Assembly (NCBI GenBank): GCA_020073305.1
Contig: JAIQFK010000009.1
Coordinates: 124,001-188,000, forward strand
Origin: Terriglobia bacterium
GTDB lineage: Bacteria; Acidobacteriota; Terriglobia; Bryobacterales; Bryobacteraceae
Direction of reading: 5' to 3'
DNA: 64,000 nt
Shown here piece after piece: positions 18,301 to 32,642 of the stretch; the first letter of the stretch is position 1; the number at the start of each line of letters is the position of its first letter. The notes beneath the pieces are model-generated. The model saw only the letters and a program-made list of their open reading frames with translations, was not told the DNA's origin and did no database searches. A program made the position numbers and the translations under genes.

Positions 18301-18943
18301 CGATGCGGAATTCCTGGACGGTATCAAGACCAGGCTGCACCCTCGAAATGGCTCCGGCAAAACGGTCCACGTAAGACGATCCGTCGAAGTTCATCTCTGT
18401 GGAACCGACTTTCATACCGTTCGTCCGGGTGTTGCTACCTCCACCCTCGACGCCTGATGTGAGATTGAAGAGGTTTGAAATCTGGCGGCCATTGAGTGGC
18501 AAGTCGTGAATGCGCAGGGCGTCTTTGACGTCACTGACCTGTGAGCCCTGCGTGGAAATGGTTGGCGCCGCACCGGTAACCTCCACGGCAGATTCCAGAC
18601 TTCCAACCTCCATGTTGGGGTCAACAATGGCGGTCTGCCCCACTTCGAGCGTCAGGGTCCCTTCCCATTTCCTGAAGCCCTGTACCTCGACTAATACCGA
18701 GTACGGGCCGATCGGGACCGAGCCGAAGTAGTAAATTCCGGCGCTGTTGGTCGTGCTTTCGCGCACGACACCTGTGGCCGTATTGGTGAGAGTGACTTTG
18801 GCGTTGGGAATGACCGCCTTGCTCGCATCCTGCACCGTCCCGCGGACCACGCCCAGTCCCGTCTGTGCCGCGACCGGAAGCGTCAGTAGTAAGAAGGCAA
18901 CAGCGAACTTTCTTGCGTACCGTAAGGAAGCATGCGAATCCAT
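15308..18943 (-). CDS. Oar-like TonB-dependent receptor with N-terminal carboxypeptidase-regulatory-like domain
   Basis: 1211 residues with a signal peptide (FAVAFLLLTLPVAAQT). The first domain is a carboxypeptidase-regulatory-like beta fold (GTVQDASKAVIPNAKVTLTN, TNSAGIYYFGSVPIGPYSV). A plug region follows (IHDLPLNGRQISNLFNLTSGV), then a long beta-barrel with many aromatic-alternating strands. It ends in FSLRLEW, a typical outer-membrane barrel C-terminus. Such receptors take up large substrates in a TonB/ExbBD-dependent way. Acidobacteriota carry many of them beside sugar-degrading enzymes, and no SusD-like gene is present here. The gene leads the operon with the sulfatase-like lipoprotein and is divergent, across 266 bp, from the hexosaminidase gene, so one control region may serve both. 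Confidence 0.93.
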   Translation of the reverse strand: MDSHASLRYARKFAVAFLLLTLPVAAQTGLGVVRGTVQDASKAVIPNAKVTLTNTATGVVRESTTNSAGIYYFGSVPIGPYSVLVEVQGFRKWEGTLTLEVGQTAIVDPNMEVGSLESAVEVTGAAPTISTQGSQVSDVKDALRIHDLPLNGRQISNLFNLTSGVEGGGSNTRTNGMKVGSTEMNFDGSSYVDRFAGAISRVQPGLDTVQEFRIETAGSGAQYSRPATIELVSRSGTNELHGALFETFRNNADGLRSRARQDGNTAAKLIRNEYGGWAGGPVLIPGVYNGKNKTFWFFDWEGMKQRQETFATTGVATPAMWGGDLSNITDSSGDIYTLYDPLTTGSGPNFTRQPFANNIIPASRLNPISKIMQGVSPLPSGPNAGGNPWIEQNFQAVYPVTQDQHTLTFKIDHNFSEKDSVSGRYTGSPNSNKTYGGLYGFPPPGCTNCGGTRRQDVAVYSAYARWNHVFSPTFLNELQLSGHRSANNSGTLGDSTKWADKLGFPNPFGVTGWPTIYTDAYSMFYSGGWDADNNNKQYLTSYEIDDNVTWVKGKHTVKFGFKGRQEYNNVAELQQAQGSHGFYTNWTAQYDPSAQAAVPFTGSGFAEMLLGMPAVLRAHYNRGFFYFQQKEIGTYFNDTWKISPRLTVDVGLRWDHWTPYHEKQNRLVNIDPTNFGIFQVVSPHNTSVDSLSGIPSGVLTSFKDRGLSWVTADSIHFPGALVQNYWKDLGPRLAVAYRLSDKWVVRGGYGIYYWPMPLSQILQAARTNPPLDLRFTNHIDTQNATDFTFALTHAPTSVDFLPNVPIDVVGVQPLGGSREGFFFDPNHWADDRMQQWTVTIERELMKNTSLRLSYIGNHGSNLEQRMAWDSSQAQLNYQTQTGLAASTNPDTRRANPNWNASLESHIGYSNANSFQAEVQRRFSNGLEFQWFYTYNHTLSTSDASAGDGGDGAFVPENSTILGQPNLSVSQRLKLVYYNSNLVPPQRVTWNGLYELPFGNGKHFANHVSGPVNQLVGGWQLSFLGTWSHGNWLGVAPKGEYLFGNPALDPSKQLDLTIFGKNQKLWFAGDFDPTQATNVNLNSLTALVPVDRSQRTLRPAGPKFDNKVPFTLADGSVRPTTITDLLSWNAQNFMLSPGNWSEDLSVFKYFNIAERMKLRFSSDFFNVFNHPVTYLADSSSTRSTLNLTTGLLDLSRQVNDPRIIQFSLRLEW

Positions 18944-19209
18944 GGGTCCCCCTCTACCTTCAGACCTCTTGATGAGTTTGGATAAGGCTATCCGAGATCA
19001 GCGACCAAGTCAAGGCAAATCTGGGCTGGGCACCCAAGACTCTGCCGGTACACTTACTTGCGGAGAATCAGAAAGTGTCGCCGAACAGAGTGACTTGCAG
19101 GCCCCGGTGTTTTGCGAGTTTGAACGCCATGACGACAACCTCACGCCGGGAATGGGAACTGATTCGCATTATATTCGCGATCGTTCCGTCTGATAACATC
19201 AGTGCTTCG

Positions 19210-21501
19210 ATGACAGTGCGTACACTGACTCTGATCTTCGTGTGCCTTGCTGCGGCGGTCACAGGTCGAACGGCAACGACGTCGGACCTTTTTGGGCGTG
19301 GATACACAGTCATTCCAGCGCCGCAGAAAGTCACGCTCCAAGCTGACGACTTTCCGTTTGGCGGCGAATGGAAAATCGAACTGGGTCCCGGCGTGGAGGC
19401 AAACTCCGTAGCGGTTGAGAGCCTGCGCGACGATCTGAAATCGCGGTTCGGCCTTTCGTTGAACGAAAGCGTACAAGCAGGCGGCCGGACCGTCCGGCTG
19501 GAACTTGCGCCGGGATCAATCGAACCGGGTCCCGCACAAGACCGTGACACCGATGCACTCGCAGCTCAGGCGTACGGCATCGAGCTATCGCGCGCGCGCA
19601 TTCGCATCCGTGCCAACGCCGATGCCGGTTTGTTCTACGGCGTCGAAACGCTGGTGCAGCTCGTCAAGCGGCGTGACCACGCGCTCTTGCTTCCGGTCGG
19701 AGAGATTGTTGATTGGCCGGACCTGCAATTGAGGCAGATCTACTGGGATGACGCACATCACCTTGATCACCTCTCGGAGCTGCAACGCGCGGTGAGACAG
19801 GCGTCGTTTTTCAAGATCAATGGCTTCGCGATCAAGTTGGAAGGACACTTCCAGTACCGGAGTGCTCCTGCCATCGTGGAGCCGTACGCACTATCACCGG
19901 CCGAGCTTCAGGAGTTAACTGATTATGGCCTCCGATATCACGTTCAAGTCATCCCGTATCTGGATGGCCCGGCGCACATCGCATTCATCCTCAAACATCC
20001 CGAATACGCGAAGCTGCGCGCATTCCCCGACAGCAATTACGAGCTGTGCACGACGAATCCGGATTCCTACCAGCTCATGGTGGGCATGTTCGAAGATTTG
20101 ATCTCGGCTAATAAGGGCGTGAAGTATATTTACCTGTCTACGGACGAACCGTATTACATCGGCATGGCCGACAACGCGCAGTGCAGCGAGCTGAAGCGGA
20201 AGCAAGAGTTGGGTACGGTGGGCCGGGTGCTCGATGAGTTCGTAGCGAAGGTGACCACGTACCTTCATGATCAGGGCCGCACGGTGGTTTTCTGGGGTGA
20301 GTATCCGCTAAAACCCTCCGATATCCAGGGGCTGCCCTCCTGGATCATCAACGGCGAAACGTACGGGCCGGAGTTTGATCCCCTGTTCAAGACGCACGGA
20401 ATCCGCCAGATGATCTACACGTCGACCGAAGGAGAGGAGCAATGGTTTCCCGATTATTTCGTCCTGCCTCGCTCACGGCGGCTGCATCAGGACCGTGGCG
20501 GTAGCGAACGCGTCGGAGGCGCGATGACGCAGATCGCCACGGACGCGGCGCGCGGCAATGCTGATCTGATGGGAATGCTGGTAGCCGGTTGGGCGGACAT
20601 GGGACTTCACCCCGAGACGTTTTGGCTCGGCTACGCCACGATACCGGCCGCGGGTTGGAATCCCAAGGGACCCGATTCTCACGAAATGATGAGTACCTTC
20701 TACCCCCTGTTCTACGGCCCGTCAGTCACCGGCATGGATCGTGTTTATCAATTGATGAGTTACCAAGCGCAAGTCTGGACGGACACATGGGATACCGTAA
20801 ACTCCACCGCGCGCAAACCCATTTGGGGGAATTCGGACCGGATATTCAAGCCGCCGCACCCGGCGCATGATCAAGCGATTCCGCTGCCCGGTGTACCATC
20901 CGCGCCGGACTTGTCGTACGAGAAACCCTGGTCAGGCGCCAATGCGAAGCGGTTGGAAGTGGCGGAAAGTGCCTTGGCCGACAATGATGAACTCCTCGGC
21001 CTGCTGCATGCCAACCAGCTTCGCGCGGAATTCAACCGCTACAACCTGGACGTGTTCGTTTCTATCTCGCGTTTCTTCCGGCAGAACCTGGAGATGCTGC
21101 GGGGCTTTTCACGCATTGACGCGGCTTTCTCGCAGGCGCACGCGGCAGCAAAAAAAGGCGACCACACGGAAGCCCTTGCCGGACTGGATCAGGCGCTGGC
21201 GCTGGCGCGGCGTATTCACACCGAGCGCAACAGCGCTCTCCGCGACGCCCTATCCACGTGGTACATAAGCTGGCACCCGCGCGTAGCCGAAGCGAACGGC
21301 CGCCGTTTCCTGCACGAACTGGATGACGTGAAGGATCATCTGCCGGATCGCGCCGTAGACATGAGCTATCTCGTCTATCGGGAGTTGCTGCTTCCCCTCG
21401 ACGACTGGTACAACCGCGTGCAATCGGCCCGGAACCAGTACGCGCAAGCACACCGGCTGCCCGTTCACGACGAGCCGCTGAACTGGAAGAATCTGGATTA
21501 A
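19210..21501 (+). CDS. Secreted GH20-like beta-N-acetylhexosaminidase
   Basis: 763 residues from the ATG at 19210, which starts a good signal peptide (MTVRTLTLIFVCLAAAVTG). The longer frame from 19075 places 45 unrelated residues in front of it and is rejected. The GH20b-type N-domain is seen (YTVIPAPQKVTL, DAGLFYGVETLVQL), then a TIM barrel with LRQIYWDDAHH, VIPYLDGPAHIAF and YIYLSTDEPYYIG. The Asp-Glu of STDE matches the substrate-assisted catalytic pair of GH20. The barrel is followed by about 200 mostly helical residues. GH20 enzymes remove terminal beta-linked GlcNAc or GalNAc. With the neighbouring TonB receptor and ROK regulator this supports a role in amino-sugar glycan use. The exact substrate is unknown. 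Confidence 0.78.
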   Translation: MTVRTLTLIFVCLAAAVTGRTATTSDLFGRGYTVIPAPQKVTLQADDFPFGGEWKIELGPGVEANSVAVESLRDDLKSRFGLSLNESVQAGGRTVRLELAPGSIEPGPAQDRDTDALAAQAYGIELSRARIRIRANADAGLFYGVETLVQLVKRRDHALLLPVGEIVDWPDLQLRQIYWDDAHHLDHLSELQRAVRQASFFKINGFAIKLEGHFQYRSAPAIVEPYALSPAELQELTDYGLRYHVQVIPYLDGPAHIAFILKHPEYAKLRAFPDSNYELCTTNPDSYQLMVGMFEDLISANKGVKYIYLSTDEPYYIGMADNAQCSELKRKQELGTVGRVLDEFVAKVTTYLHDQGRTVVFWGEYPLKPSDIQGLPSWIINGETYGPEFDPLFKTHGIRQMIYTSTEGEEQWFPDYFVLPRSRRLHQDRGGSERVGGAMTQIATDAARGNADLMGMLVAGWADMGLHPETFWLGYATIPAAGWNPKGPDSHEMMSTFYPLFYGPSVTGMDRVYQLMSYQAQVWTDTWDTVNSTARKPIWGNSDRIFKPPHPAHDQAIPLPGVPSAPDLSYEKPWSGANAKRLEVAESALADNDELLGLLHANQLRAEFNRYNLDVFVSISRFFRQNLEMLRGFSRIDAAFSQAHAAAKKGDHTEALAGLDQALALARRIHTERNSALRDALSTWYISWHPRVAEANGRRFLHELDDVKDHLPDRAVDMSYLVYRELLLPLDDWYNRVQSARNQYAQAHRLPVHDEPLNWKNLD

Positions 21502-21511
21502 CCCAACGCTG

Positions 21512-22807
21512 TTAGAGGGTTAGGGCCCACGGTCTCCGGTATTCGCGCCGCAGGAACGACCGCGCTTCTGCCTGCCGGATCGTCCCATTGCGCTCGTCCC
21601 AGTCGATTCGTGTTTGTGCCCGCAGCGACAGGTTGCCGAGAATGCACGCCGACGACGATCGGCAGCAGGTTTCAATATCACTGATCGGCCTCTGACGCGA
21701 GCGTACGCACGCGAGAAAGTTGACCCAGTGTAGCGGGTGAGGATCGGCAACGCGCCTCATCTCTGACGGTTCCAGATCCGAGCCTTTCTCTGGCACGACC
21801 CGGTATAACTCCCGGTCGACGTACAGCGTGCCGCGCGTGCCGTGAAATGTCGCGCCCATCAGCCTGCTGGTGTGCTCGAACGTGTTGTTCGAGCGGTGCT
21901 CCCAAGAAGCAAGGAAGCCAGGATATTCGTAGCTGACTTGCAGGGTGTCGGGAGCCTCGGTGTCATCCTTAAACCAATACTTGCCGCCCAGCGCGGCGGC
22001 CGATAACGGCATGGGATCGCCAAAAGCCATGTGCACGATGTCGATCATGTGAACTCCGGAATCGGTAAGCTGTCCGCCCGCGTAATCCCAGAAGTAGCGG
22101 AAGTACGAGTAGGCGTTCGGGTACACGCCGAACCGGTTCGGATTGAACGGACGAGCCGGCGCCGGACCCAACCACATGTCCCAATCGAGACCGCGGGGCA
22201 CTGGACTGTCTGGCGGGTTGCCGATGCCGCTCTCGGCCTGATTGCTGTAGATCCACGTCCGGGCGACCGTAACCTTTCCGAGACTTCCGTTGCGCACCAG
22301 TTCGCACGCCTTCTGAAAATGCGCGCCGGATCTTTGCCATGTCCCGGCTTGCACAACTCGGTTATACTTACGCGCAGCGGTGACCATCGCCTGAGCTTCG
22401 TCCACCGCTACGCTTACCGGCTTTTCGACATAAACATCCTTGCCCGCTTTGCAGGCCTCCACCGTCATGTACGGATGCCAGTGGTCCGGCGTGGAAATGC
22501 ACACGGCGTCGATAGACGGGTCGGCGAGCACTTGCCGGAAATCGCCTGTCTCCTTCGGCTGGTGACCGGCCTTTCGCGCCAGTGCCGCGGCCCGTTCCAG
22601 GTGCGGCTGATAGACGTCGCAAACGGCGGCCACGGCTATGCCGGGCTGTGCCATCGCGGCCTGCAAGTTCTCGGTCCCCATCACGCCGATGCCGATGAAC
22701 CCGAGCGAAATGCGATCGTTGGCGCCCCTGGCGCCTTCGTTCAGCGCGGAATTTAGCGCCGCAGCGCCCACACCGCGAAGAAAATCACGACGATCTACTG
22801 TGCTCAT
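21512..22807 (-). CDS. Tat-exported Gfo/Idh/MocA-family oxidoreductase
   Basis: 431 residues from ATG 22807, giving MSTVDRRDFLRGVGAAAL, a twin-arginine signal. An upstream ATG at 22828 would add seven residues before it. The Rossmann motif is GFIGIGVMGTENL, and the family signature VYVEKPVS follows STPDHWHPYMTVEA. The C-terminal alpha/beta domain has the usual DSGVHMIDIVHMAFG. These enzymes bind NAD(P) tightly and oxidise, reduce or isomerise sugars. Exported members are abundant in Acidobacteriota and Planctomycetes, and some act as nucleotide-recycling glycoside hydrolases. The gene converges on the hexosaminidase gene with only 10 bp between the stops and is likely part of the same sugar locus. 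Confidence 0.88.
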   Translation of the reverse strand: MSTVDRRDFLRGVGAAALNSALNEGARGANDRISLGFIGIGVMGTENLQAAMAQPGIAVAAVCDVYQPHLERAAALARKAGHQPKETGDFRQVLADPSIDAVCISTPDHWHPYMTVEACKAGKDVYVEKPVSVAVDEAQAMVTAARKYNRVVQAGTWQRSGAHFQKACELVRNGSLGKVTVARTWIYSNQAESGIGNPPDSPVPRGLDWDMWLGPAPARPFNPNRFGVYPNAYSYFRYFWDYAGGQLTDSGVHMIDIVHMAFGDPMPLSAAALGGKYWFKDDTEAPDTLQVSYEYPGFLASWEHRSNNTFEHTSRLMGATFHGTRGTLYVDRELYRVVPEKGSDLEPSEMRRVADPHPLHWVNFLACVRSRQRPISDIETCCRSSSACILGNLSLRAQTRIDWDERNGTIRQAEARSFLRREYRRPWALTL

Positions 22808-22835
22808 AGCGCCACTGTAGCATTGCACTGCGCCC

Positions 22836-24230
22836 TTAGAGAGGCTCGGTGCTAATCGTATCTCCCAGGGTTCCGAGGCTGCGCGGAGCCGTGCGGAAAC
22901 CGTGGGTGATCACAGCCAGATACATGGCACCGACCGTCAGCCACGCGAAACCCACAAGTTTGGCATTCGTGCTGAGACTCAGCCACACATAGGTGCAAAC
23001 GAGGGTTCCGGCTGCAGGAAAAATGAGATTGGTGAAAAAGTCGACTCCGTTCCGCCTTCCCAAACGGAAATAGTAGTGCCGAATCACGCTCAGGTTCACC
23101 AGGATGAACCCCACGAAAGCACCGAAGTTCAGGAGTTCGACTGCCATCTGAAACCGCATAAGGACCGCGCCGAAGAGCGACAGCACGGCCATGAAATAAA
23201 TACTCCGGGTGGGTGTCGAAAAACGAGGATCGATATAGCCGAAAACGCGGCGCGAAATTACGCCATCCCGTCCCATGCCATAGAGCAGCCGTGACGCGCC
23301 CGCCTGTCCAGTGAGAGCGCTGGCGAGCCCTGCCACGAGCAGCACAAACGTGATGAAGCCGAACATCCACCCGCCTCCCACCATGCGGCCAATATCGAGA
23401 ATGATGGTTTCAGTCTGTGGGAACGTGCGGTAATCGGGCCATACCAGTTCGGCCAGGTAAACCGTGACAACACAGAACACCGTCTGCACCACACAAACCA
23501 GTACCGTCGAAGAAGCGATGTCCCTTTCCGGGCTGACAGTGTCCTCAGCCAGCGTGGAAATCGCATCAAATCCGATGTAGGAGATGGCCGCGATGCTCGC
23601 GCCCAGCATGAGAGGCCGCACCGCAAACGACTCGGGACGCCAGAGGCCGCGAAGATTCAAGAGACCAGCTACGCCGTGGCCCGCGGCTACATATCGTGTC
23701 GCCAGCACAACCAACAGCACAGCGCAAACGGTCATGACGACCATCATGACGGAGCTGGCCCGCGTGGTGACGCGAATGCCCGGGATGTTGATTAGGGTCA
23801 GGCTCACGGTGAACAGAATCGCCCAGACGATGTATGGAACCTGAGGGAGCAAACGCACTGCGGTGAGCGCGGCGTATATGATGCTCAGCAGCGGGATGAG
23901 AAAATAGTCGAGCATCATCGCCCAGCCGGCAAGAAACCCCACGTGCTCGTTGAGCGCATGCTGCGCGTAGGTGTAGGTTGACCCGGCGGCGGGGAACGCG
24001 CCCGACATTTTGCCGTAGCTGGCTGCAGTGAATAGCATCGCAACCATTGCCACCAGGTAGCTGAGTGCCGCATGACCGTGCGAAGTCTGCTGAACAATGC
24101 CATACACCGGATAGGGCGCCGTGGGCGTGAGGATCACCAGGCCGTAAAGGATCAGGTCGCGGCGTGAGAGGACCCGTCGCAGTGAGCCGCTTGTTGGCTG
24201 CGCCCGCGTTGCGGCCTCCTCGGACTTCAC
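22836..24230 (-). CDS. APC-superfamily amino acid/polyamine permease
   Basis: 464 residues with about 12 hydrophobic segments. TM1 contains ILYGLVILTPTAPYPVYG and is followed by MSGAFPAAGSTYTYAQ, both typical of the APC family (PuuP/YeeF-like branch). The next conserved block is ISYIGFDAISTLAEDTVSPERD. Such carriers import amino acids or amines with protons. Its ATG overlaps the stop of the ROK regulator (ATGA at 24227-24230), so the two are co-translated and the regulator probably controls the uptake gene. The substrate cannot be fixed from sequence. In a sugar locus an amino sugar-derived amine or an amino acid is possible. Confidence 0.88.
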   Translation of the reverse strand: MKSEEAATRAQPTSGSLRRVLSRRDLILYGLVILTPTAPYPVYGIVQQTSHGHAALSYLVAMVAMLFTAASYGKMSGAFPAAGSTYTYAQHALNEHVGFLAGWAMMLDYFLIPLLSIIYAALTAVRLLPQVPYIVWAILFTVSLTLINIPGIRVTTRASSVMMVVMTVCAVLLVVLATRYVAAGHGVAGLLNLRGLWRPESFAVRPLMLGASIAAISYIGFDAISTLAEDTVSPERDIASSTVLVCVVQTVFCVVTVYLAELVWPDYRTFPQTETIILDIGRMVGGGWMFGFITFVLLVAGLASALTGQAGASRLLYGMGRDGVISRRVFGYIDPRFSTPTRSIYFMAVLSLFGAVLMRFQMAVELLNFGAFVGFILVNLSVIRHYYFRLGRRNGVDFFTNLIFPAAGTLVCTYVWLSLSTNAKLVGFAWLTVGAMYLAVITHGFRTAPRSLGTLGDTISTEPL

Positions 24231-25453
24231 GCCGACGCCCCGGCAGCATGACGTGATTCACCGGTTGCGAAAACGCTGGTGAACGGCAGTGTCGCTGCGC
24301 CGATCAGCGCTGCTTCCCCTCCTAAAGCGGAAGGCCGGAGAAGCACACTCAACCCTGTGACGCTGTCACCCTCGGGAAAAGGGTCGCAGAGTACGGGTTC
24401 AATGAGCGGCCAGGCGCCGGTGATGGCGCCGTCGACCACGATCACATCCGCGTCCAGGCCCCAGATGATATTTGAGATTCCCACGCCCAGGCAGGTGGCC
24501 ACTTCGCGCAGGCTATCGCGCGCAGCCTGATCGCCATTCAGCGCATGCTGCACAATGCTCCGTACACGCGCCGAAGTGTCACCGGAAGTGGCGGGCCGGC
24601 GCTCTCCGGCCAGCACCGCGTAGCGGTCGCACAACGCAGGGTTCGAGGCCAGACGTTCCAGACAGCCGGGCCGGTCATGCCGTTCCCGGCCCGGCGACAT
24701 GGCGATGACCATCTGGCCGAATTCGCCCGCGGCCATGCGTGGCCCGGGATACAGCTTGCCATCGAGCAGAATGCCAGTGCCGACTCCTTCATCCACCTTT
24801 ACGAAAAGGAAACAGCGGGCTCCATACACTTCGGGTGAACCGTAGTTATATTCCGCCAGGGCGGCCGCACGCACGTTGTTCTCAACGTAGACGGGCTCAT
24901 GGATTCGCGCCTCGAGCGTCTCACGAACACGAACATTGGACCAGCCGGCGCGGCTCCCGAGCACAATCACGCCCGTATCGCTGTTCACGATGCCGCGCGC
25001 ACAAACGCCCATGCCGGTGACGCGCTGGCTGCCCAGCCGCTTGCGGCAGTCAAGGAACGCATCCGCAATTTGCTCGATCGTCGCCTCGGCGGAGAACGGG
25101 GTCCGAAACCGCCGGCTTTCGACGAGGTGCCCGCGCATCGTGCTGACCGCCACACGTGTCTCCCAGTTCTGAACCTCGGCGCCGAATGCGACACGGGTGG
25201 GTTCGAGCTGCAGGCGGCGCCCGGGGCGGCCGCCGGTGGAATTCTCTTCGCCGTCTTCCCGAACCAGCGCGTCGGCGATCAGCTCCGACATGATTCGCGA
25301 GACCGTTCCTTCGGAAAGCCCGCTCTGGCGCGCGATGTCGGCCCGTGACATGTGTTCGTTGTGACGCAGCAACTGCAACACGGCCGCGCGGTTTGCACCC
25401 CTCATCTCCGGCGGCCGGAGAATTCGCTTCTTGGCGTTGGCAGCTCGCTGCAT
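24227..25453 (-). CDS. ROK-family transcriptional regulator (NagC/XylR type)
   Basis: 408 residues from the ATG at 25453. A more upstream ATG at 25522 is possible but would leave only 11 bp to the divergent gene. The N-terminal winged helix reads NRAAVLQLLRHNEHMSRADIA and GLSEGTVSRIM, followed by the linker GGRPGRRLQL and a ROK kinase-like domain (FVKVDEGVGTGILLDG, AAGEFGQMVI). The zinc motif of ROK proteins normally has three Cys before CLE; here it reads RHDRPGCLE, so only the last Cys remains and zinc binding is doubtful. Such proteins usually repress sugar genes until a phosphorylated or free sugar binds. Targets are probably the permease it overlaps and the divergent gene at 25534. Confidence 0.85.
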   Translation of the reverse strand: MQRAANAKKRILRPPEMRGANRAAVLQLLRHNEHMSRADIARQSGLSEGTVSRIMSELIADALVREDGEENSTGGRPGRRLQLEPTRVAFGAEVQNWETRVAVSTMRGHLVESRRFRTPFSAEATIEQIADAFLDCRKRLGSQRVTGMGVCARGIVNSDTGVIVLGSRAGWSNVRVRETLEARIHEPVYVENNVRAAALAEYNYGSPEVYGARCFLFVKVDEGVGTGILLDGKLYPGPRMAAGEFGQMVIAMSPGRERHDRPGCLERLASNPALCDRYAVLAGERRPATSGDTSARVRSIVQHALNGDQAARDSLREVATCLGVGISNIIWGLDADVIVVDGAITGAWPLIEPVLCDPFPEGDSVTGLSVLLRPSALGGEAALIGAATLPFTSVFATGESRHAAGASA

Positions 25454-25533
25454 GACTTTGTGAATCAGCGCAAGTAAGTCTAACGGAGTGCCCAAGCTGC
25501 CGTCAATCGCAGTTGACACCATCTCGCCAGCCG

Positions 25534-27288
25534 ATGTATCGTGCCCGCGTGCTGGTAAAAATAGCCGCGCGTATCGGCCTTGTGGGCGTTATGGCTTCGA
25601 TGGTCGCGGCCTCGGAATTGCCGAAACGTTACTTTGAGCTGATGTATGCAGGCGCACGCCGCGTCCAGGAGCGGCTCGATGCCGAGCCGAATGCCACGCT
25701 GGAATCTCTGGAGAAGGTCCCTGGGTGGCAGCATTTTGGGTACTCGATCCTCGCGCCTGCCGTGCTCTACGCGAAACGTGATGCCGTTAATGACCACTAT
25801 CACGATGCGGCGACGCTCGCGCTCGCGATTCGCATCGGCGACCTCCTGATCTCAGAAAACGAAAAGGGCCGCTTTGCGCCACGCCTGGACAGCGATTGGG
25901 ATGCATATACCTGGCTAGAGGCATATCGCCTGTTAGAGCGTGAACTCGGTCAGGACCGCCGCGACCGCTGGCAACATGCGCTCATCGAAAACATACAGCC
26001 GTTCGAGACCGACGCAGCCGAGCGCATCGATTTTCCCTGGTATGAATCGCCCTACATCGGAACGTCGCCGAACCATTATTCACAGTGGGCTGAGCTTCTT
26101 TATCTGGGTGGCATGACCTTCGACAGGCCCGAATGGGTTAAACTTGGCGCCGCGATCCTGCATCGTTTCCTCGGCGAACAAACTCCGGATGGCTTCTGGG
26201 GAGAACACAGCCACGCGGGGCCCACTACCGGTTACGACCATCTGACTCTCTCGGCAGTCGCCGTTTATTGCGAACACAGCAGGGACGTGGCCTGTCCCGA
26301 AGCCCTGCGACGCTCGTTGAACTTTCACGAGAATTTCACGTACCCGAACGGAATTCCCGTGGAGACGATCAATGACCGCAACCGGCACTGGAGTGTAAGC
26401 GCATGGGCCCAGTTCGCTTTCTCCAACTTCCCGGATGGCCGCCGGTATGTGGAGTTTCTAACAGGCTTTTTCGAACCTGACAAGTTGACCATGGACCAAC
26501 TCGGCCGCCTGTCGCAGGACGCTCTTTATTATCACGATGGCCCATCAGCACCCATTCCGCAGGACCAGGACCGCTACACCTATCGCATGCAGGTTCCAGC
26601 GGGCATACGCAAAATCGGTCCGTGGGTCGTGTGCCTGTCCGGCATCATCGCCACACAGGCGCCGACAAGCCAGTATTATCTGGACCGGCAGTCGAACCTG
26701 AGCATCTTTCACGGCAGGCTGGGTCCGATCATCAATGGCGCGAACTCGAAACGGCAGCCGGAACTTGCGACTTTTCGCGAGGGCATCGGCGGGCACATCT
26801 ATCATTTGGCCCAGAGCAGCCGCCTTCAAATGAGCGACGCGCGCGACCGTCTCTCGCTTGCCTTCAACAGCTTTTTCGCCGACCTGTACGTTGAACCGGC
26901 GTCGGATCATCAACTCAGGATGCGTTTCGTCATCGCGGGGAAGGGAAGGCCGGCCGACGAGGCGTTCGCCACTTTGCAACTCGTCCTGAAGGCGGGCGAG
27001 ACGCTTGAGACAGCGAAAAGAAATCTGACTCTGTCCGCTGAGCCGGTGAATCTCGGGCCAGAAGACATCGGTGGATGGATACGCCATCACGGCTGGACTC
27101 TTGCCGTGGATCCGAATGCGCGGCTGGTGTGGCCTGTGTATCCGTTCAATCCTTATGCAGATGCGCCGGAAACGGCTTTGGAACAGGCTGTTGGAGCGTT
27201 GTCCGTTCCGCTACGCTTGAAGGCGCGGCCGGGGCATTACGTGCGTCCCCATGAGCAAGAGATCGTTTTCACACTGACGGCGAACTGA
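25534..27288 (+). CDS. Secreted protein of unknown function, probable (alpha/alpha) toroid plus beta domain
   Basis: 584 residues from ATG 25534. A TTG at 25513 would add seven residues and ATG 25591 would remove nineteen. The start MYRARVLVKIAARIGLVGVM looks like an export signal. The first ~400 residues are helix-rich with regularly spaced Trp/Tyr/His clusters (WDAYTWLEAYRLLE, PNHYSQWAELLYLGG, DGFWGEHSHAGPTTGYDH). The last ~200 are beta-rich. This resembles the helical-toroid plus beta-sandwich layout of several polysaccharide lyases and glycoside hydrolases, but no family-specific motif was recognised. It is divergent from the ROK regulator and lies 61 bp upstream of the M20 peptidase, so a glycan-degrading role is a guess from context. 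Confidence 0.6.
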   Translation: MYRARVLVKIAARIGLVGVMASMVAASELPKRYFELMYAGARRVQERLDAEPNATLESLEKVPGWQHFGYSILAPAVLYAKRDAVNDHYHDAATLALAIRIGDLLISENEKGRFAPRLDSDWDAYTWLEAYRLLERELGQDRRDRWQHALIENIQPFETDAAERIDFPWYESPYIGTSPNHYSQWAELLYLGGMTFDRPEWVKLGAAILHRFLGEQTPDGFWGEHSHAGPTTGYDHLTLSAVAVYCEHSRDVACPEALRRSLNFHENFTYPNGIPVETINDRNRHWSVSAWAQFAFSNFPDGRRYVEFLTGFFEPDKLTMDQLGRLSQDALYYHDGPSAPIPQDQDRYTYRMQVPAGIRKIGPWVVCLSGIIATQAPTSQYYLDRQSNLSIFHGRLGPIINGANSKRQPELATFREGIGGHIYHLAQSSRLQMSDARDRLSLAFNSFFADLYVEPASDHQLRMRFVIAGKGRPADEAFATLQLVLKAGETLETAKRNLTLSAEPVNLGPEDIGGWIRHHGWTLAVDPNARLVWPVYPFNPYADAPETALEQAVGALSVPLRLKARPGHYVRPHEQEIVFTLTAN

Positions 27289-27349: not shown

Positions 27350-28660
27350 ATGATCAACGCCGGCCCGAGTTTGCAGCAGACGATCTCCGACTTTGTGGAT
27401 CAGCGGCGGAGCCGTCTGATAGAGCTAACTCGCGATCTGATCCGCATCCCGTCCGAGAACACGCCTCCAAGCGGCGCCGAGCGAGCTTGTCAGGAGTACA
27501 TCGCGGGCATATTGCGCGCCAGGGGCTGGCATCCGGAACTGTACGAGCTCGCGGATGTGAAAGGCTTGAGCGAGCACCCCCTGTTTCAACCCGGCCGCGA
27601 GTATGCCGACCGGCCCAACCTTGGTGCTCGTCGCAAGGGCGCAGGCGGGGGGCGTTCTCTGGTGTTATCCGGCCACATCGATACCGTTCCACGCGGCACC
27701 CAACCCTGGACTCGGGACGCATTCGGAGGAGAGGTGGAAGCCAACCGCGTTTACGGCCGCGGGTCGAACGATATGAAAGCCGGCGTCGCCATGAATCTGT
27801 TCATCGCTGAGTCATTGGCGGAACTCGACGTGCACTTGGCCGGCGACCTGGTATTCGAAACCGTTGTTGACGAGGAGTTCGGTGGCGTGAACGGCACACT
27901 CGCCAACCGCCTTCGCGGGTTCAATGGCGACGCCGCGGTGATTTCCGAGCCATCGTTTCTCCGGGTTTGTCCGGCACAGCGCGGCGGGCGGACGGCACAC
28001 ATCACGTTTCGCGCCTCCGGCGGCATTCTCACGGAGGGCAAGTTCCCCGCTGGCGTCATCCAGCAGCTCACACGCTTTCTTGCGAACGTGCCGGAGTTCG
28101 CTGCGGCGAGGCGGCAGAAGGCGCAAGTCCACGAGCTTTACAAGGGACACGCGGATCCAGTGCCGGTTTCGATCACGAAAGTATTCACGTCGCCCTGGGG
28201 CACGAAAGAACCGATTACTGTTCCTGAAGAGTGCAAGGTGGAGTTTTATTGGCAGCTCATGCCGGGAGAGGCTCAGGACGAGGTCGAGCGCGAGTTTTTT
28301 GATTGGCTCGATAGGATCGTGAGTTCTGCACCGGAGCTTTTTCCAGAGCGGCCGCATGTTGCGTTTCCCATCCGCTGGATGCCCGGTTCGGCGATTCTGA
28401 AATCGGAGCCGCTGGTACGAGAACTAGCGGCATGCGCCGAAGCGATCCTCGGCGCCGAACCTGCGATCGTCGGCATCGAGGGACCCTGCGATATGTTTGT
28501 CTTTCACCAGGCATTTTCGATTCCCGCCGTGCTCTGGGGACCACGCGGTGGAAACACCCACGCCGCAGACGAATACGTGGAAATCGATTCTCTTGTAGAC
28601 GCTGCCAAAACCCTGATGCTCTTCGTCTGCCGGTGGTGCGGGCTGGCGTCGGCCGCTTAG
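27350..28660 (+). CDS. M20-family metallopeptidase/deacylase (ArgE/DapE type)
   Basis: 436 residues without a signal peptide, so cytoplasmic. The di-zinc site is complete: SGHIDTVP (His109), GRGSNDMKAG (Asp141, bridging), VVDEEFGG (Glu175 catalytic base and Glu176 ligand), ISEPS (Glu ligand) and GGNTHAADEYV (His ligand). Members remove acyl groups or amino acids from small substrates, such as acetylornithine, succinyl-diaminopimelate or aminoacylated compounds. In this locus deacylation of an N-acylated product is conceivable. The gene follows the unknown secreted protein after 61 bp. Its stop overlaps the stop of the convergent GH42-like gene by 3 bp. Confidence 0.9.
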   Translation: MINAGPSLQQTISDFVDQRRSRLIELTRDLIRIPSENTPPSGAERACQEYIAGILRARGWHPELYELADVKGLSEHPLFQPGREYADRPNLGARRKGAGGGRSLVLSGHIDTVPRGTQPWTRDAFGGEVEANRVYGRGSNDMKAGVAMNLFIAESLAELDVHLAGDLVFETVVDEEFGGVNGTLANRLRGFNGDAAVISEPSFLRVCPAQRGGRTAHITFRASGGILTEGKFPAGVIQQLTRFLANVPEFAAARRQKAQVHELYKGHADPVPVSITKVFTSPWGTKEPITVPEECKVEFYWQLMPGEAQDEVEREFFDWLDRIVSSAPELFPERPHVAFPIRWMPGSAILKSEPLVRELAACAEAILGAEPAIVGIEGPCDMFVFHQAFSIPAVLWGPRGGNTHAADEYVEIDSLVDAAKTLMLFVCRWCGLASAA

Positions 28661-31230
28661 AAAATCTCGAACACCGCGTTTCCAGTCTCTCCGGTTAGCA
28701 GATCCTTCACACGCGCGTTCCAGTTTCCGGAAGCATCGTTGTACGCGACAGGAATCGCCCACGCAGCGCGCCCGCCTCGCGCGCGGAGATTACCGGAGTA
28801 GAAGGGAACTACGCGGCCAGCAGGATCCGATACTTCGATGTGCAGCAGATGCATGGTTGCTGGTGTGCTTCCGTCGATCGAAATGCCGAGGTTAGCCGTC
28901 TCACCCCGTAGGATCCCATCCGGCGCTCGAATCACAAGCCCCGGCAGACGCTTTGCCGATAGAGCATAGATCACAGGCTCATAGGGATCAAGCTGAATAC
29001 TCAGCTCTCGCGCATTGCCAAGCAGCTTGCCGGCGCGGAGATCGTACACGAACAGCGTTTCGGGCATGGTGAGTTTCAGCGAACGCCGCCGGGCAAAATG
29101 CTCGTTCGAACGAAAATCGGGCGGCCCCAGTTCATCTACCCGCAGATCCGGATTGCTCAGCAGGCCAAGGATCGTGACGTCACCGTTTCGGAACCGATGC
29201 GTTTCGACGCCCGCTGCCAGTCGGCCCTCTTCATCGGTGATCGTGAACGCCGGTGTGACGCCGGCCTCGCGCAGGATACGGGCGATGAGGTCGCGCGTCT
29301 CTCCACCCTTCCCGAGGAGGCGCTCGCGGTGATAATCGAGCACGTTTGTCTTCAAGTAGATTGCTTTGCCCCGCCCGAATGCGCGCTCCGTGATTGGGGC
29401 TTCATGCGCGCCGCCGAACAGATCAGCGAGTTGCGCGTGCGCCAGCCTGCGCCCGTGCTCGTCAAACGCGCCGGGGTCGCCATCAGCGACCACGACACCG
29501 CCTTGCGCGACGAAAGCATGAATCGCGTGCGCCTCCGCGGCAGAGAGCGCGCTCGAATGCGGCAGGATCAGAACGCGATAATCGCCCCGCAACAGTTCGC
29601 TCTCTTCTATTTGGCCGTAGGAAACGAAATTGTACTGAAGCCCGGCATCCTCGATGACCCGGCACCAGGATTCGCGCAGCCGTAGAAAGTCATTCTCGGT
29701 CCTTTCCGCCCTCGGGCTGCGCATGGCCCACGCCCGCCCGCGCGGCCGTGATTCCAACATCCACTCGACCCGCAAGCTCGGCTGCGAATAATGAATCGCA
29801 ATCGGGTCCGACTGCCTCTCGCTGTTGATCAGAAGCGCGCCGAGGCCGTTCCGCAATTCGTTGTAATAACTCTCCGTCTCATGGCCGCGCGCTTCCACTT
29901 CGCCGTTCTTATTTACGTACTCGCTCTTGTCATCCCACAGAATCAGCCCGCGGTTGCCGTGCAGCAGTTCATACCAGACGCGGTGCTTCTCCCACGGTCC
30001 GTGCTCAAAGGCTGTCGTCAGCACGGCCATGTGCGGGTTGAGCGAGCGGATAATCTCGATGTTGTTGCCGATGTCGTAAGGTTCGATCGCAGTCAGCGCC
30101 CGCACAATGCGCGAGTAGTCGTAACCGCCCCAGCCGGGCATCTGCCCGCCGCCGATACCCACGTATGCTTCGGGGTCGACCGAATGAACGGCGTCACTGC
30201 CCATCTTCAGTGCGTTCGCGTAGCAGATGTCCATCCACTCCTTGAAATCCGCCCAGGAAGAGAAGTTGTCATCGTTCCTCTCCATCGCCTCATCCGTCGT
30301 AATCGGCATTACCCGATTCCAGGAGTTGAAGTCCGAGCCCCACTGCCGGTTCAGTGCGGCCAAAGTGCCGTATTGTTGCCGCAGCCACTCGCGCATGGGC
30401 ACCAGGGATTCGTCCGAGAAATCAAAGTCCCACGCCGCCTCGAGTTCAGCAATTCCAGTTTCATCACCGAGGCTGTAGAAGAGCGGCCGATATGGCGAGA
30501 AAAAGCGCGCCGACTCCACCAGCCGGTCGTGAATCTTCTTAAGCCATTCCGCGTCCGTCAAACTCGGGTGCCGCTTGAACGGCTCAAGGCTGGATCTGTC
30601 CCTTTCATGGGCCGCTCTCGCTAGTTTGAACTCCCAGCCATTGTCACGGTCTGGGTAGTAGTGATGATAGGCCGAATAAAAATCCGTGGCTACGTTTTCC
30701 GCATACCAGCGCAGGTCGTTCTTCAGCAGGAATTCCGGTGTGCTCCGGGCACGGCCCCCATACTCGCCTCCGTTGATGCCCAGCGTCTTGAGCTTTGCGA
30801 ACAGCTCCGGGCTGTAATTCTGCCACATGATGATGGCGTAATCCCACCAGGTGTGGACCGGCGGTTTGGCTACGAAAGTCACTCGGGCCTCCTGATCCCG
30901 GTGATCGGCCGCTCCCTTTTTGTCTTGACCGTCAAAAACGAGATGCGCGCTCACTTCGTTCTGCATAGCTTCCGCGCGGCGCAGGTCGAGATCGAACCCG
31001 ATATCTGTCTCATCGTTCATCTCCACGGGCACGGTTCGCCGTTCCACAATGCGCCCGTACACATCTGTCCACTCGATGGAAAGATGGCCGCGGCCGGTAG
31101 CGAGAGGCAGCGTTTTGAAAATGGCATGAACCGGCTCGGTCCGTTCCAGCGCCGCGGAAGGCAGAATCAACTCCGCGCCGAACGTTGTAGTCGTTGCGAC
31201 TGTGGCGAACAGAAAAAAGACCGTGCGCAT
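28657..31230 (-). CDS. Secreted GH42-like glycoside hydrolase-related protein with a GATase-like domain
   Basis: 857 residues with a signal peptide (MRTVFFLFATVATTTTFGAE). A beta domain comes first, then a TIM-barrel region with FYSLGDETGI (a candidate acid/base Glu, as in GH42) and the GH42-like helical stretch PMREWLRQQYGTLAALNRQW. After the barrel is a class-I-glutamine-amidotransferase-like fold (YRVLILPHSSALSAAEAHAI, FVAQGGVVVADGDPG) resembling the trimerisation domain of GH42 beta-galactosidases. Beta-rich C-terminal domains follow. Clan GH-A enzymes of this layout cleave beta-galactosides or related sugars. The nucleophile Glu could not be assigned with certainty. It lies 29 bp downstream of the enolase-superfamily gene and is probably in its operon. 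Confidence 0.72.
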   Translation of the reverse strand: MRTVFFLFATVATTTTFGAELILPSAALERTEPVHAIFKTLPLATGRGHLSIEWTDVYGRIVERRTVPVEMNDETDIGFDLDLRRAEAMQNEVSAHLVFDGQDKKGAADHRDQEARVTFVAKPPVHTWWDYAIIMWQNYSPELFAKLKTLGINGGEYGGRARSTPEFLLKNDLRWYAENVATDFYSAYHHYYPDRDNGWEFKLARAAHERDRSSLEPFKRHPSLTDAEWLKKIHDRLVESARFFSPYRPLFYSLGDETGIAELEAAWDFDFSDESLVPMREWLRQQYGTLAALNRQWGSDFNSWNRVMPITTDEAMERNDDNFSSWADFKEWMDICYANALKMGSDAVHSVDPEAYVGIGGGQMPGWGGYDYSRIVRALTAIEPYDIGNNIEIIRSLNPHMAVLTTAFEHGPWEKHRVWYELLHGNRGLILWDDKSEYVNKNGEVEARGHETESYYNELRNGLGALLINSERQSDPIAIHYSQPSLRVEWMLESRPRGRAWAMRSPRAERTENDFLRLRESWCRVIEDAGLQYNFVSYGQIEESELLRGDYRVLILPHSSALSAAEAHAIHAFVAQGGVVVADGDPGAFDEHGRRLAHAQLADLFGGAHEAPITERAFGRGKAIYLKTNVLDYHRERLLGKGGETRDLIARILREAGVTPAFTITDEEGRLAAGVETHRFRNGDVTILGLLSNPDLRVDELGPPDFRSNEHFARRRSLKLTMPETLFVYDLRAGKLLGNARELSIQLDPYEPVIYALSAKRLPGLVIRAPDGILRGETANLGISIDGSTPATMHLLHIEVSDPAGRVVPFYSGNLRARGGRAAWAIPVAYNDASGNWNARVKDLLTGETGNAVFEIF

Positions 31231-31259: not shown

Positions 31260-32642
31260 CTATCGGCTCACTACCGGTTTACCGTACTCATCCAGATGCG
31301 GATACGGGCCGCCGATCCGGAACTGATCGAGAATGTAGTCATCGTACTGCGGCGTGGGCGCCAAGTACCCGCCCTTGCGGATATGCTCTTTTACCACCTC
31401 CTCGTTCAGTTCCACCCCAAGCCCCGGCACATCCGGTACCGCGATGTAGCCCCTGTCTACGATCGGTTTCGATGGTCCCCTCACCAGGTCCCCCCACCAG
31501 GGAATGTCTATCGCGTGGTTCTCCATCGCCAGCATGTCCTTTAGTGTTGCTGCCATGTGCACGGAGGCCATGCACCCCACCGGCGATCCCGCGAAGTGAA
31601 TGGCCGTCTGAATGGCGTGCATGGACGCGTAATCAGCGATGCGTTTGGTCTCGCGGATCCCGCCCGCCGTCAGCGGGTCCGGATGGATGATGTCGATTGC
31701 GCGATTGTCGATCAGTTCCCTAAAGCCTTCCTCCAGCCCGAAGAGGCTCTCGCCGGTGGCTATCGGCGTCCTAGTGGCCTCTTTCAGCTCTTTATAGCCG
31801 CGCCAGTTTTTCGGCGCGTCGCTGCCCGGCCCCAGGTTGCCAATATCAATCATGTCTTCTGCCCAGGCCAGGTCATATTTTTCGAATGCCCGCGCATACC
31901 GGATGCTGTCCTTCACGGTCAACGCGCCAAAGTGATCCGCTGCCAGCGGCGCCTCCCATCCAATCGCGTCGCGCACCGCCTGAATGTATTCGCACATGTA
32001 CTCCAGGCCTTTCTCCGTGGCCACCCGGCCGTCGTTCACGGCACCGGGCCTGTCGGCGACCATGTGCGTCCCGAGGTCCATCTTGAAAAATGTGAAGCCC
32101 TGCGCCTTTCTTGCTTTGAAACGTTCGGCATAGATCTTCGGATCCCGGCTTTCGGTGGTATCGCAATAGATGCGGATTTTGTCCCGATACTTGGAGCCGA
32201 TCAGGCGCCAGGCCGGCACGCCGTACACTTTGCCGGCGATGTCGTGGAGCGCCATGTCCACGGCGCTGTATCCGCCGCCCATCCGCTGGTGGTTGGCGAA
32301 ATTGCGGAGGCTGTCAAGAAGCGGCTCGATGGATAGCGGATTTTTGCCAACGAGATGGGGCTTCAACACGAGCGCAGTGCCTTCCCGGCCCGCGTCACGC
32401 GCTTCGCCCAGGCCGTAAACTCCCTGGTTTGTGTCGATCCGGATGATGGGGTAGTCGTAGTTCGACGCCACCAGAACGAACCGCATGTCCGTGATTTTTA
32501 ACTGGCTCGGCGCAGAATTGCGGTTGAAGCTCGCCGGGCTTGTTGCCTGCGCACCCGCGGCACTCCGGCTCATCTTGAACATTCCCGCGAAAACACCGGC
32601 GCTCACCAGAAACCGCCTGCGATTGAATCGAGGTCCAGTCAT
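31260..32642 (-). CDS. Tat-exported mandelate racemase/enolase-superfamily enzyme
   Basis: 460 residues. The N-terminus NRRRFLVSAGVFAGM is a twin-arginine signal. The capping domain is followed by a barrel with GFTFFKMDLG (strand-2 Lys), LAADHFG (metal Asp), WAEDMID (metal Glu), TGESLFG (third metal Glu) and TAIHFAGSP (His on strand 7). This set matches the mandelate racemase or sugar-acid dehydratase subgroups, which abstract a proton alpha to a carboxylate. Typical substrates are aldonic or uronic acids such as gluconate, galactonate or mannonate. It heads the operon with the GH42-like protein. An exported member of this usually cytoplasmic family is unusual, although common in Acidobacteriota. 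Specificity is not deducible here. Confidence 0.85.
   Translation of the reverse strand: MTGPRFNRRRFLVSAGVFAGMFKMSRSAAGAQATSPASFNRNSAPSQLKITDMRFVLVASNYDYPIIRIDTNQGVYGLGEARDAGREGTALVLKPHLVGKNPLSIEPLLDSLRNFANHQRMGGGYSAVDMALHDIAGKVYGVPAWRLIGSKYRDKIRIYCDTTESRDPKIYAERFKARKAQGFTFFKMDLGTHMVADRPGAVNDGRVATEKGLEYMCEYIQAVRDAIGWEAPLAADHFGALTVKDSIRYARAFEKYDLAWAEDMIDIGNLGPGSDAPKNWRGYKELKEATRTPIATGESLFGLEEGFRELIDNRAIDIIHPDPLTAGGIRETKRIADYASMHAIQTAIHFAGSPVGCMASVHMAATLKDMLAMENHAIDIPWWGDLVRGPSKPIVDRGYIAVPDVPGLGVELNEEVVKEHIRKGGYLAPTPQYDDYILDQFRIGGPYPHLDEYGKPVVSR

Follow-up and report, generated by a model that had tools for sequence, protein, structure and literature searches.

A candidate secreted polysaccharide lyase family in Acidobacteriota with a predicted toroid and beta-sandwich fold

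We identified a gene in a 64,000-nucleotide stretch of a Terriglobia bacterium genome (GCA_020073305.1, contig JAIQFK010000009.1, positions 124,001 to 188,000 – the whole stretch analysed, hereafter the window) that probably encodes a secreted polysaccharide lyase. Judged from family sequences and structural models, the enzyme would belong to a family undescribed in the libraries searched and would work like PL33- and PL35-type lyases. A first-pass annotation had guessed at an undescribed polysaccharide lyase or hydrolase, and our results support it. Over the full length, the structures that match best belong to lyases acting on uronic-acid polymers (PL35, PL33, PL17 and PL12 among others) and to the human dermatan sulfate (DS) epimerase, a sequence profile links the protein to heparinase II/III, and the catalytic Asn and Tyr of these enzymes align with N180 and Y234. 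Of the two options in the guess, we infer lyase activity, which is favoured over hydrolase activity.

We regard the gene as a solid lead towards a new enzyme family whose fold is already well known; it does not amount to a novel type of system. If active, the protein would add a polysaccharide lyase (PL) family that escapes present Pfam and NCBIfam models, and such genes would thereby become recognisable in acidobacterial genomes and metagenomes. It would also provide a handle on the uronic-acid polymers eaten by poorly cultured acidobacteria, and a test of how a toroid lyase functions without the usual beta-domain His/metal site.

Table 1. Coordinates in the window of the candidate lyase gene, its predicted parts and its neighbours.
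Feature	Coordinates	Strand	Basis
Candidate polysaccharide lyase gene, 584 aa	25534..27288	+	ORF, homologues, AlphaFold2 model
Probable Sec signal peptide, residues 1-27, MYRARVLVKIAARIGLVGVMASMVAASE	25534..25614	+	Read by eye; pLDDT <50 at residues 1-7 and 9-25
Predicted helical (alpha/alpha) toroid domain, residues 28-335	25615..26538	+	AlphaFold2; heparinase II/III toroid profile match, residues 126-276
Predicted antiparallel beta-sandwich domain, residues 336-584	26539..27285	+	Separate AlphaFold2 model; VIA-align
N180-H181, proposed carboxylate-neutralising pair, motif TSPNH	26071..26076	+	N 23/24, H 24/24 rows; profile alignment
Y234, proposed catalytic Tyr (acid/base)	26233..26235	+	24/24 rows; aligned with clan Tyr
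R282, invariant toroid Arg, motif NDRNR	26377..26379	+	24/24 rows
D384-R385-Q386, beta-domain hallmark near the clan's HxHxD place (by eye)	26683..26691	+	R and Q 24/24, D 22/24 rows
H393, possible base or Tyr activator, beta domain	26710..26712	+	21/24 rows
Sulfatase with NPCBM domain	12937..15084	-	
Outer membrane barrel protein, TonB-dependent-receptor-like	15308..18943	-	
GH20-type beta-hexosaminidase-like protein	19075..21501	+	Library matches
Gfo/Idh/MocA oxidoreductase; nearest NCBIfam glycoside 3-dehydrogenase, below cut-off	21512..22828	-	
Amino-acid-permease family transporter	22836..24230	-	
ROK-family regulator, divergent; nearest NCBIfam NagC and Mlc, below cut-off	24227..25522	-	Library matches
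M20-type metallopeptidase/deacylase, downstream, same strand	27350..28660	+	Library matches
GH42-like protein	28657..31230	-	Weak Pfam and PDB similarity
Mandelate racemase/muconate lactonizing superfamily; nearest NCBIfam galactonate dehydratase, below cut-off	31260..32642	-	

The gene and its place outside sequence libraries

The gene is a frame of 584 aa that opens with an ATG at 25534 and closes with a stop codon at 27286-27288 (Table 1). GTDB contigs encode relatives of the window protein at 16 loci. Fifteen of the 16 aligned relatives are 46-72% identical to the window protein over most of the length, and the remaining one is distant, with partial coverage and 33% identity. Because relatives occur at 16 loci and align over long stretches, we consider 25534-27288 a real conserved gene. 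Conservation counts given below are based on a 24-row family alignment from which duplicate loci were left out. Truncated or split copies (L012, L014's second copy/L035/L040, L015, L016/L034/L038, L033 and L036) and weak matches (L049, L050, L051 and L052) also lie outside the 24 rows.

Sequence properties agree with what the first-pass annotation had read from the window, namely a secreted, Trp/Tyr/His-rich protein of no recognised family. By eye, the N-terminus resembles a Sec signal peptide, and the other 23 aligned rows begin with a hydrophobic or twin-Arg leader; the leader sequence suggests that the candidate lyase is probably secreted. Trp, Tyr and His make up 10.6% of the whole protein and 13.0% of its toroid part. 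Of the 28 window ORFs with 300 aa or more, this one ranks first for these residues, slightly ahead of the next at 9.9%. The window protein had no Pfam match at E<=1 and no NCBIfam or PHROGs match at E<=0.1. Neither the single sequence nor a 17-member profile found a relevant PDB sequence at E<=10, and at that threshold no polysaccharide lyase of known structure was matched by sequence. Two PDB sequence matches, BAT-2 beta-lactamase and NRD1, had E values of 0.48 or worse and were set aside as chance.

When the 17 members were scanned singly, Pfam returned four families, each for one member (E 0.015-0.21), among which Alginate_lyase (E 0.015) was the sole sensible one. The corresponding NCBIfam scan returned one match, to a 'polysaccharide lyase' model (E 0.014, one member). 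Plasmid records gave no tblastn match at E<=1e-5. In literature titles and the openings of abstracts, which brought up studies of PL33, PL35 and PL40, we recognised no earlier description of the family, a nameless family being hard to search for.

Predicted fold, remote homology and putative active site

AlphaFold2, supplied with 17 family sequences, gave a confident model of the whole protein (pLDDT 89.7, pTM 0.89), with helices up to about residue 331 and strands from 347 to the C-terminus. Modelled alone with 24 sequences, the beta domain had a pLDDT of 90.4. These models bear out the succession of toroid and beta domain described in the first-pass annotation, which had also called for a Foldseek search. 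In that search of the PDB with the whole model, the top 38 rows were all lyases combining a toroid with a beta-sandwich (E 2.8e-10 to 3.3e-5). They span PL33, PL35, PL8, PL12, PL15, PL17 and PL39, with PL33 (8r75) first. TM-scores were moderate – 0.41-0.58 of the query across the top 38 rows, and 0.46-0.58 (0.45 for 4mmi) in the top 20, with an rmsd of 7.5-10.7. No clear match to a non-carbohydrate family, the outcome that the first-pass annotation had named as counting against its reading, occurred.

Whole-chain comparison by VIA-align placed PL35 lyases at the top, with GAGase VII (8khw; Z 20.9, rmsd 4.0, 471 residues), GAGase II (8khv; Z 20.7) and BcPL35 (9o3q; Z 20.5) aligning over 464-471 residues. 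Human DS epimerase 1 (6hzn) followed at Z 19.8 over 489 residues, PL17 at 18.9 and PL33 at 17.6. Toroid-only enzymes reached similar Z scores, but across only about 275-293 residues; the toroid half ties with the GH88-type 3wiw (Z 20.1, 283 residues) and with cellobiose 2-epimerase (Z about 19). For the beta domain alone, VIA-align gave PL33 (Z 14.6, 201 residues), xanthan lyase (14.5), 8khv (14.3) and the DS epimerase (14.3). Among the 50 matches listed for this domain, six were neither lyase nor epimerase (Z 12.8-13.3), being four GH38-type mannosidase rows and two alpha-N-acetylgalactosaminidase rows. Foldseek with the beta domain alone was less specific, with cellobiose phosphorylase first and glycosidases interspersed with lyases. 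As modelled, the protein has the two-domain fold of the toroid plus antiparallel beta-sheet polysaccharide lyase clan.

Profile comparison adds a remote sequence link to heparinase II/III (PF16889/PF07940; PL12, PL15, PL17, PL21 and PL39 type). Searching with the family profile brought up L050 (E 2.2e-7) and L052 (E 6.3e-4), both Pfam-positive heparinase II/III proteins, as well as the Pfam-negative L049 and L051. Matches to the heparinase II/III C-domain were collected at 31 places in 18 of 60 genomes; the comparison set comprised the 19 strongest of 29 matches from a profile of eight heparinase proteins, with L050 and L052 included. Aligning the 24-row family with these 19 by hhalign gave a probability of 96.2 and an E value of 2.8e-9 (one comparison) over residues 126-276. 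The E value was 1.3e-7 (one comparison) once L050 and L052 were removed, and 1.8e-5 (probability 78) once three distant family rows were removed as well. Among controls, seven GH88 proteins (from 20 loci, with frames picked by length) gave E 0.012, and 20 column shuffles gave 0.026 or worse. Heparinase II/III was the sole significant profile link among the groups compared (heparinase II/III, GH88 and one PL8 protein), and the link concerns the toroid; the beta domains gave no convincing sequence alignment to heparinase II/III proteins in hhalign's global mode. None of the 17 members matched Pfam Hepar_II_III_N or Hepar_II_III_C at E<=1.

Kinship to PL8 was also considered, as the D219-H225-Y234 spacing resembled a PL8 motif. 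It was dropped because the profile match (E 0.038) fell in the wrong region and H225 is kept in only 19 of the 24 rows. That comparison used the single protein L103; L104 and L105, from the three places found, lacked this motif and were excluded. Pfam Lyase_8 models matched neither the window protein nor the 17 members at E<=1. In structure, PL8 enzymes (hyaluronate, chondroitin AC and xanthan lyases) appear at Foldseek rank 3 (2wda) and at beta-domain Z scores of 12.8-14.5. PL8 lyases are not known to need HxHxD. Membership of GH88 was likewise rejected, given no Pfam Glyco_hydro_88 match, the profile E value of 0.012 and the extra beta domain. The sequence, motif and profile tests made place the protein outside PL35, PL33, Hepar_II_III and GH88.

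The profile alignment pairs N180-H181 with the clan's Asn-His and Y234 with the clan's Tyr, and the residue order NH ... DG ... Tyr is shared with heparinase II/III proteins. By this alignment, the toroid would carry the catalytic Asn and Tyr of the clan. The single exception at position 180 is Ala in one distant row (L037), and those at 393 are Arg in L043 and L032 and Asn in L011; E224 and W364 are each kept in 24 of 24 rows. N180 and Y234 lie 54 residues apart in the window protein, and the corresponding spacing is 55 in 20 of the 24 rows and 54, 54, 52 and 49 in the rest. HxHxD is found in the beta domain of none of the 24 family rows, whereas the looser H.[HQ].D occurs, anywhere in the protein, in 16 of 19 heparinase-like proteins. 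Because N, H and Y are conserved and HxHxD is absent, the toroid half of the site appears to be kept and the beta half altered. H393 could substitute for the clan's beta-domain His, and we propose that either this residue or the invariant Arg-Gln takes its place.

Three papers allow a comparison with characterized active sites. The PL35 catalytic triplet is given as Tyr246, His401 and Asn192, with His403, Asp405, Asp421 and His457 at the metal (PMC12088678); the PL33 catalytic residues as N238, Y291 and H444 (PMC11848413); and PL40 as having Tyr305 plus His485, which adjoins a metal site (PMC12915356). The Asn-to-Tyr spacing of 54 equals that of PL35 N192/Y246 and PL12 N240/Y294, and N180/Y234 match PL33 N238/Y291 in order and closely in spacing.

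PL35 shares the toroid and a two-layer beta domain with the family, but aligned identity is 11-13%, the protein has no sequence match to 8khv, 8khw or 9o3q at E<=10, and the 24 rows lack an HxHxD equivalent to His401 and its metal-binding companions His403 and Asp405. The family's Asn-His pair stands against Asn-Asn in GAGase II and His-Asn in GAGase III. PL33 (BT4410, 8r70-8r75) gave both the best Foldseek E value for the whole model and the best beta-domain VIA-align score, yet identity is 9-10%, there is no sequence match to 8r70-8r75 at E<=10, and H444 as reported there has no certain counterpart in the family. Human DS epimerase 1 has the same two-domain fold at 10% identity and differs in being an epimerase with another biological role.

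Gene neighbourhood and proposed function

The divergent ROK neighbour mentioned in the first-pass annotation is present on the minus strand (Table 1). Its longest-frame start (25522) lies 12 bases from that of the lyase gene (25534). The true ROK start probably lies further inside the frame, which would leave space for a shared promoter. An operator search near the ROK promoter found one perfect 8-nt inverted repeat, at 25405-25421 within the ROK frame. Downstream, 61 bases separate the end of the lyase gene from the M20-type gene. The GH42-like protein in the window possibly represents an undescribed glycosidase group too. Of eight solved chains, the nearest to the sulfatase is an N-acetylglucosamine-6-sulfatase, followed by a choline-sulfatase. 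The 28 window proteins scanned include no GH88; the two GH88 matches in this genome sit on other contigs.

We counted GH42-like and GH20 matches in 17 family-bearing genomes (excluding the genomes of L004, L006, L009, L012 and L015 and the weak-match genomes G033, G275 and G575). In six of these (G000, G188, G298, G299, G304 and G305), the contig with a family gene also carries a GH42-like relative, 0.6-13.3 kb away; six more have one on other contigs only, and five have none. The background rate is one to four matching stretches per 4-9 Mb genome. GH20 matches occur somewhere in all 17 genomes and no more than 6 kb from the family gene in four (G000, G298, G304 and G305).

Neighbours of the relatives were surveyed through 29 proteins beside 11 relatives, picked mostly by size, together with a fused frame at L009. 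Esterase-type alpha/beta hydrolases adjoin L004, L005, L007 and L014, and the L009 frame contains a weakly scoring fused one. GH123-type N-domains adjoin L005 and, below cut-off, L002; M28 peptidases adjoin L002, L004 and L013; Gfo/Idh/MocA proteins adjoin L005 and L013; and proteins similar to the window's barrel adjoin L004, L012 and L013. A sulfatase adjoins L012 and an M20 protein L011. Other neighbours look unrelated – a molybdopterin enzyme and GH38 (L001), VWA and TPR proteins (L003), an SMC-type protein (L007), and HEAT and M55 proteins (L014) – and two neighbours of L006 had no library match. Overall, the neighbourhood, which varies between genomes, suggests that the polymer degraded is of amino-sugar/uronate type and bears ester or sulfate groups.

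Part of this evidence would also suit an enzyme that leaves the polymer chain intact. Such an enzyme could be a uronyl C5-epimerase, or another proton-transfer enzyme that is not a lyase, resembling DS-epi1 and using the same Tyr and Asn; 6hzn stands in the leading structural group, near PL35 and above PL17 and PL33. The PL35 lyases score slightly higher, however, and the catabolic gene context (GH20-type, GH42-like, sulfatase and the relatives' esterases) and secretion-type leader argue against an epimerase, which we consider unlikely. We judge a hydrolase similarly improbable, in which a GH88/GH105-like toroid, acting on glycosides or on unsaturated uronyl residues, would carry an added beta domain. 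The tie between the toroid half and 3wiw points that way, but GH88 structural matches span the toroid only whereas those to lyases span both domains, and the profile E value of 0.012 compares with 1.8e-5 to 2.8e-9 for heparinase II/III.

GH154 is now proposed to be a beta-glucuronate dehydratase, and PMC12269599 describes a member in a Bacteroides locus with PL35, GH88, GH109 and peptidases. Such a uronate-modifying enzyme, priming saturated ends for GH88, would suit the window's neighbours equally well. Against it, the N and Y positions align with those of lyases, no structure named as GH154 or dehydratase is among the 50 matches listed by each of Foldseek and VIA-align, and no PDB sequence of this kind was matched at E<=10; we regard this reading as unlikely. 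Loss of HxHxD from all 24 rows would be expected of a catalytically dead lyase fold acting as a secreted sugar-binding protein, but N180, H181, E224, Y234, R282, R385 and Q386 are retained in 23-24 of the 24 rows, an active-site-like conservation that leaves a dead enzyme highly improbable.

For the polysaccharide lyase that we prefer, the chain would sit in the cleft between the toroid and the beta domain, where N180 and H181 would neutralise the carboxylate at C5 of the uronic acid in position +1. In proton transfer, Y234 may act either as both acid and base or only as acid, and R385/Q386 or H393 may lower the Tyr pKa, taking over from the metal-linked His of the clan's HxHxD. Beta-elimination would then break the C4-O bond, the new chain end being 4,5-unsaturated uronosyl. 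A GlcA/HexNAc-type polymer, possibly ester- or sulfate-bearing, is the probable substrate, and its degradation would be completed by the nearby GH20-type, GH42-like and sulfatase proteins (and by esterases in relatives). A wider hypothesis, to which we assign an even chance, is that these proteins are the founders of a new PL family with scattered occurrence across Acidobacteriota, whose members perform beta-elimination without HxHxD, by means of a toroid Asn-His/Tyr site and the beta-domain Arg-Gln, and in several genomes head a PL, GH20-type and GH42-like module directed at some uronate/amino-sugar polymer.

Distribution and variant family members

By their titles, 15 of the 16 GTDB loci are from Acidobacteria (with Bryobacterales, Solibacteraceae and Acidobacteriaceae among the labels), and one is labelled Bacteroidetes. 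Sampling 396 genomes of the window's phylum yielded 10 with a match, one of them the window's own genome. In two of the ten (G033 and G275) the match is weak and concerns other toroid proteins, so that eight genomes remain. The gene is sporadic within its phylum. In the phylum to which L011's genome belongs, 2 of 198 genomes match, and one of these matches is a heparinase. The window's own genome has a single copy of the family gene and, elsewhere, two Pfam-positive heparinase II/III proteins (G000:C12:11882-12355 and G000:C2:206851-207288).

The distant relatives L037 and L039 (which share genome G300) and L021/L048 have 24-29% identity in the beta domain and no convincing Pfam match, and retain Y234, R282, R385 and Q386; they may be separate subfamilies. 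A 566 aa protein at L049:598-2295 (minus strand) has no Pfam match, shares the toroid match and, as judged by eye, contains 'DRQ' in the beta part. It is possibly another undescribed relative of the family.

Some copies are fused or broken. In L009:490-3276, a single frame joins the family protein to a weakly scoring AXE1/alpha-beta hydrolase domain – a natural lyase-esterase fusion. At L016:1-1587, the C-terminal part of the family protein shares a frame with a GH42-like domain that scores just below the Pfam cut-off, the frame being cut by the contig start. The family gene at L015:1954-3695 is split across two overlapping frames, by a frameshift or an assembly error. Contig G305:C116 (L014, L025, L031, L035 and L040) holds three family copies in about 37 kb, the middle one split into two frames.
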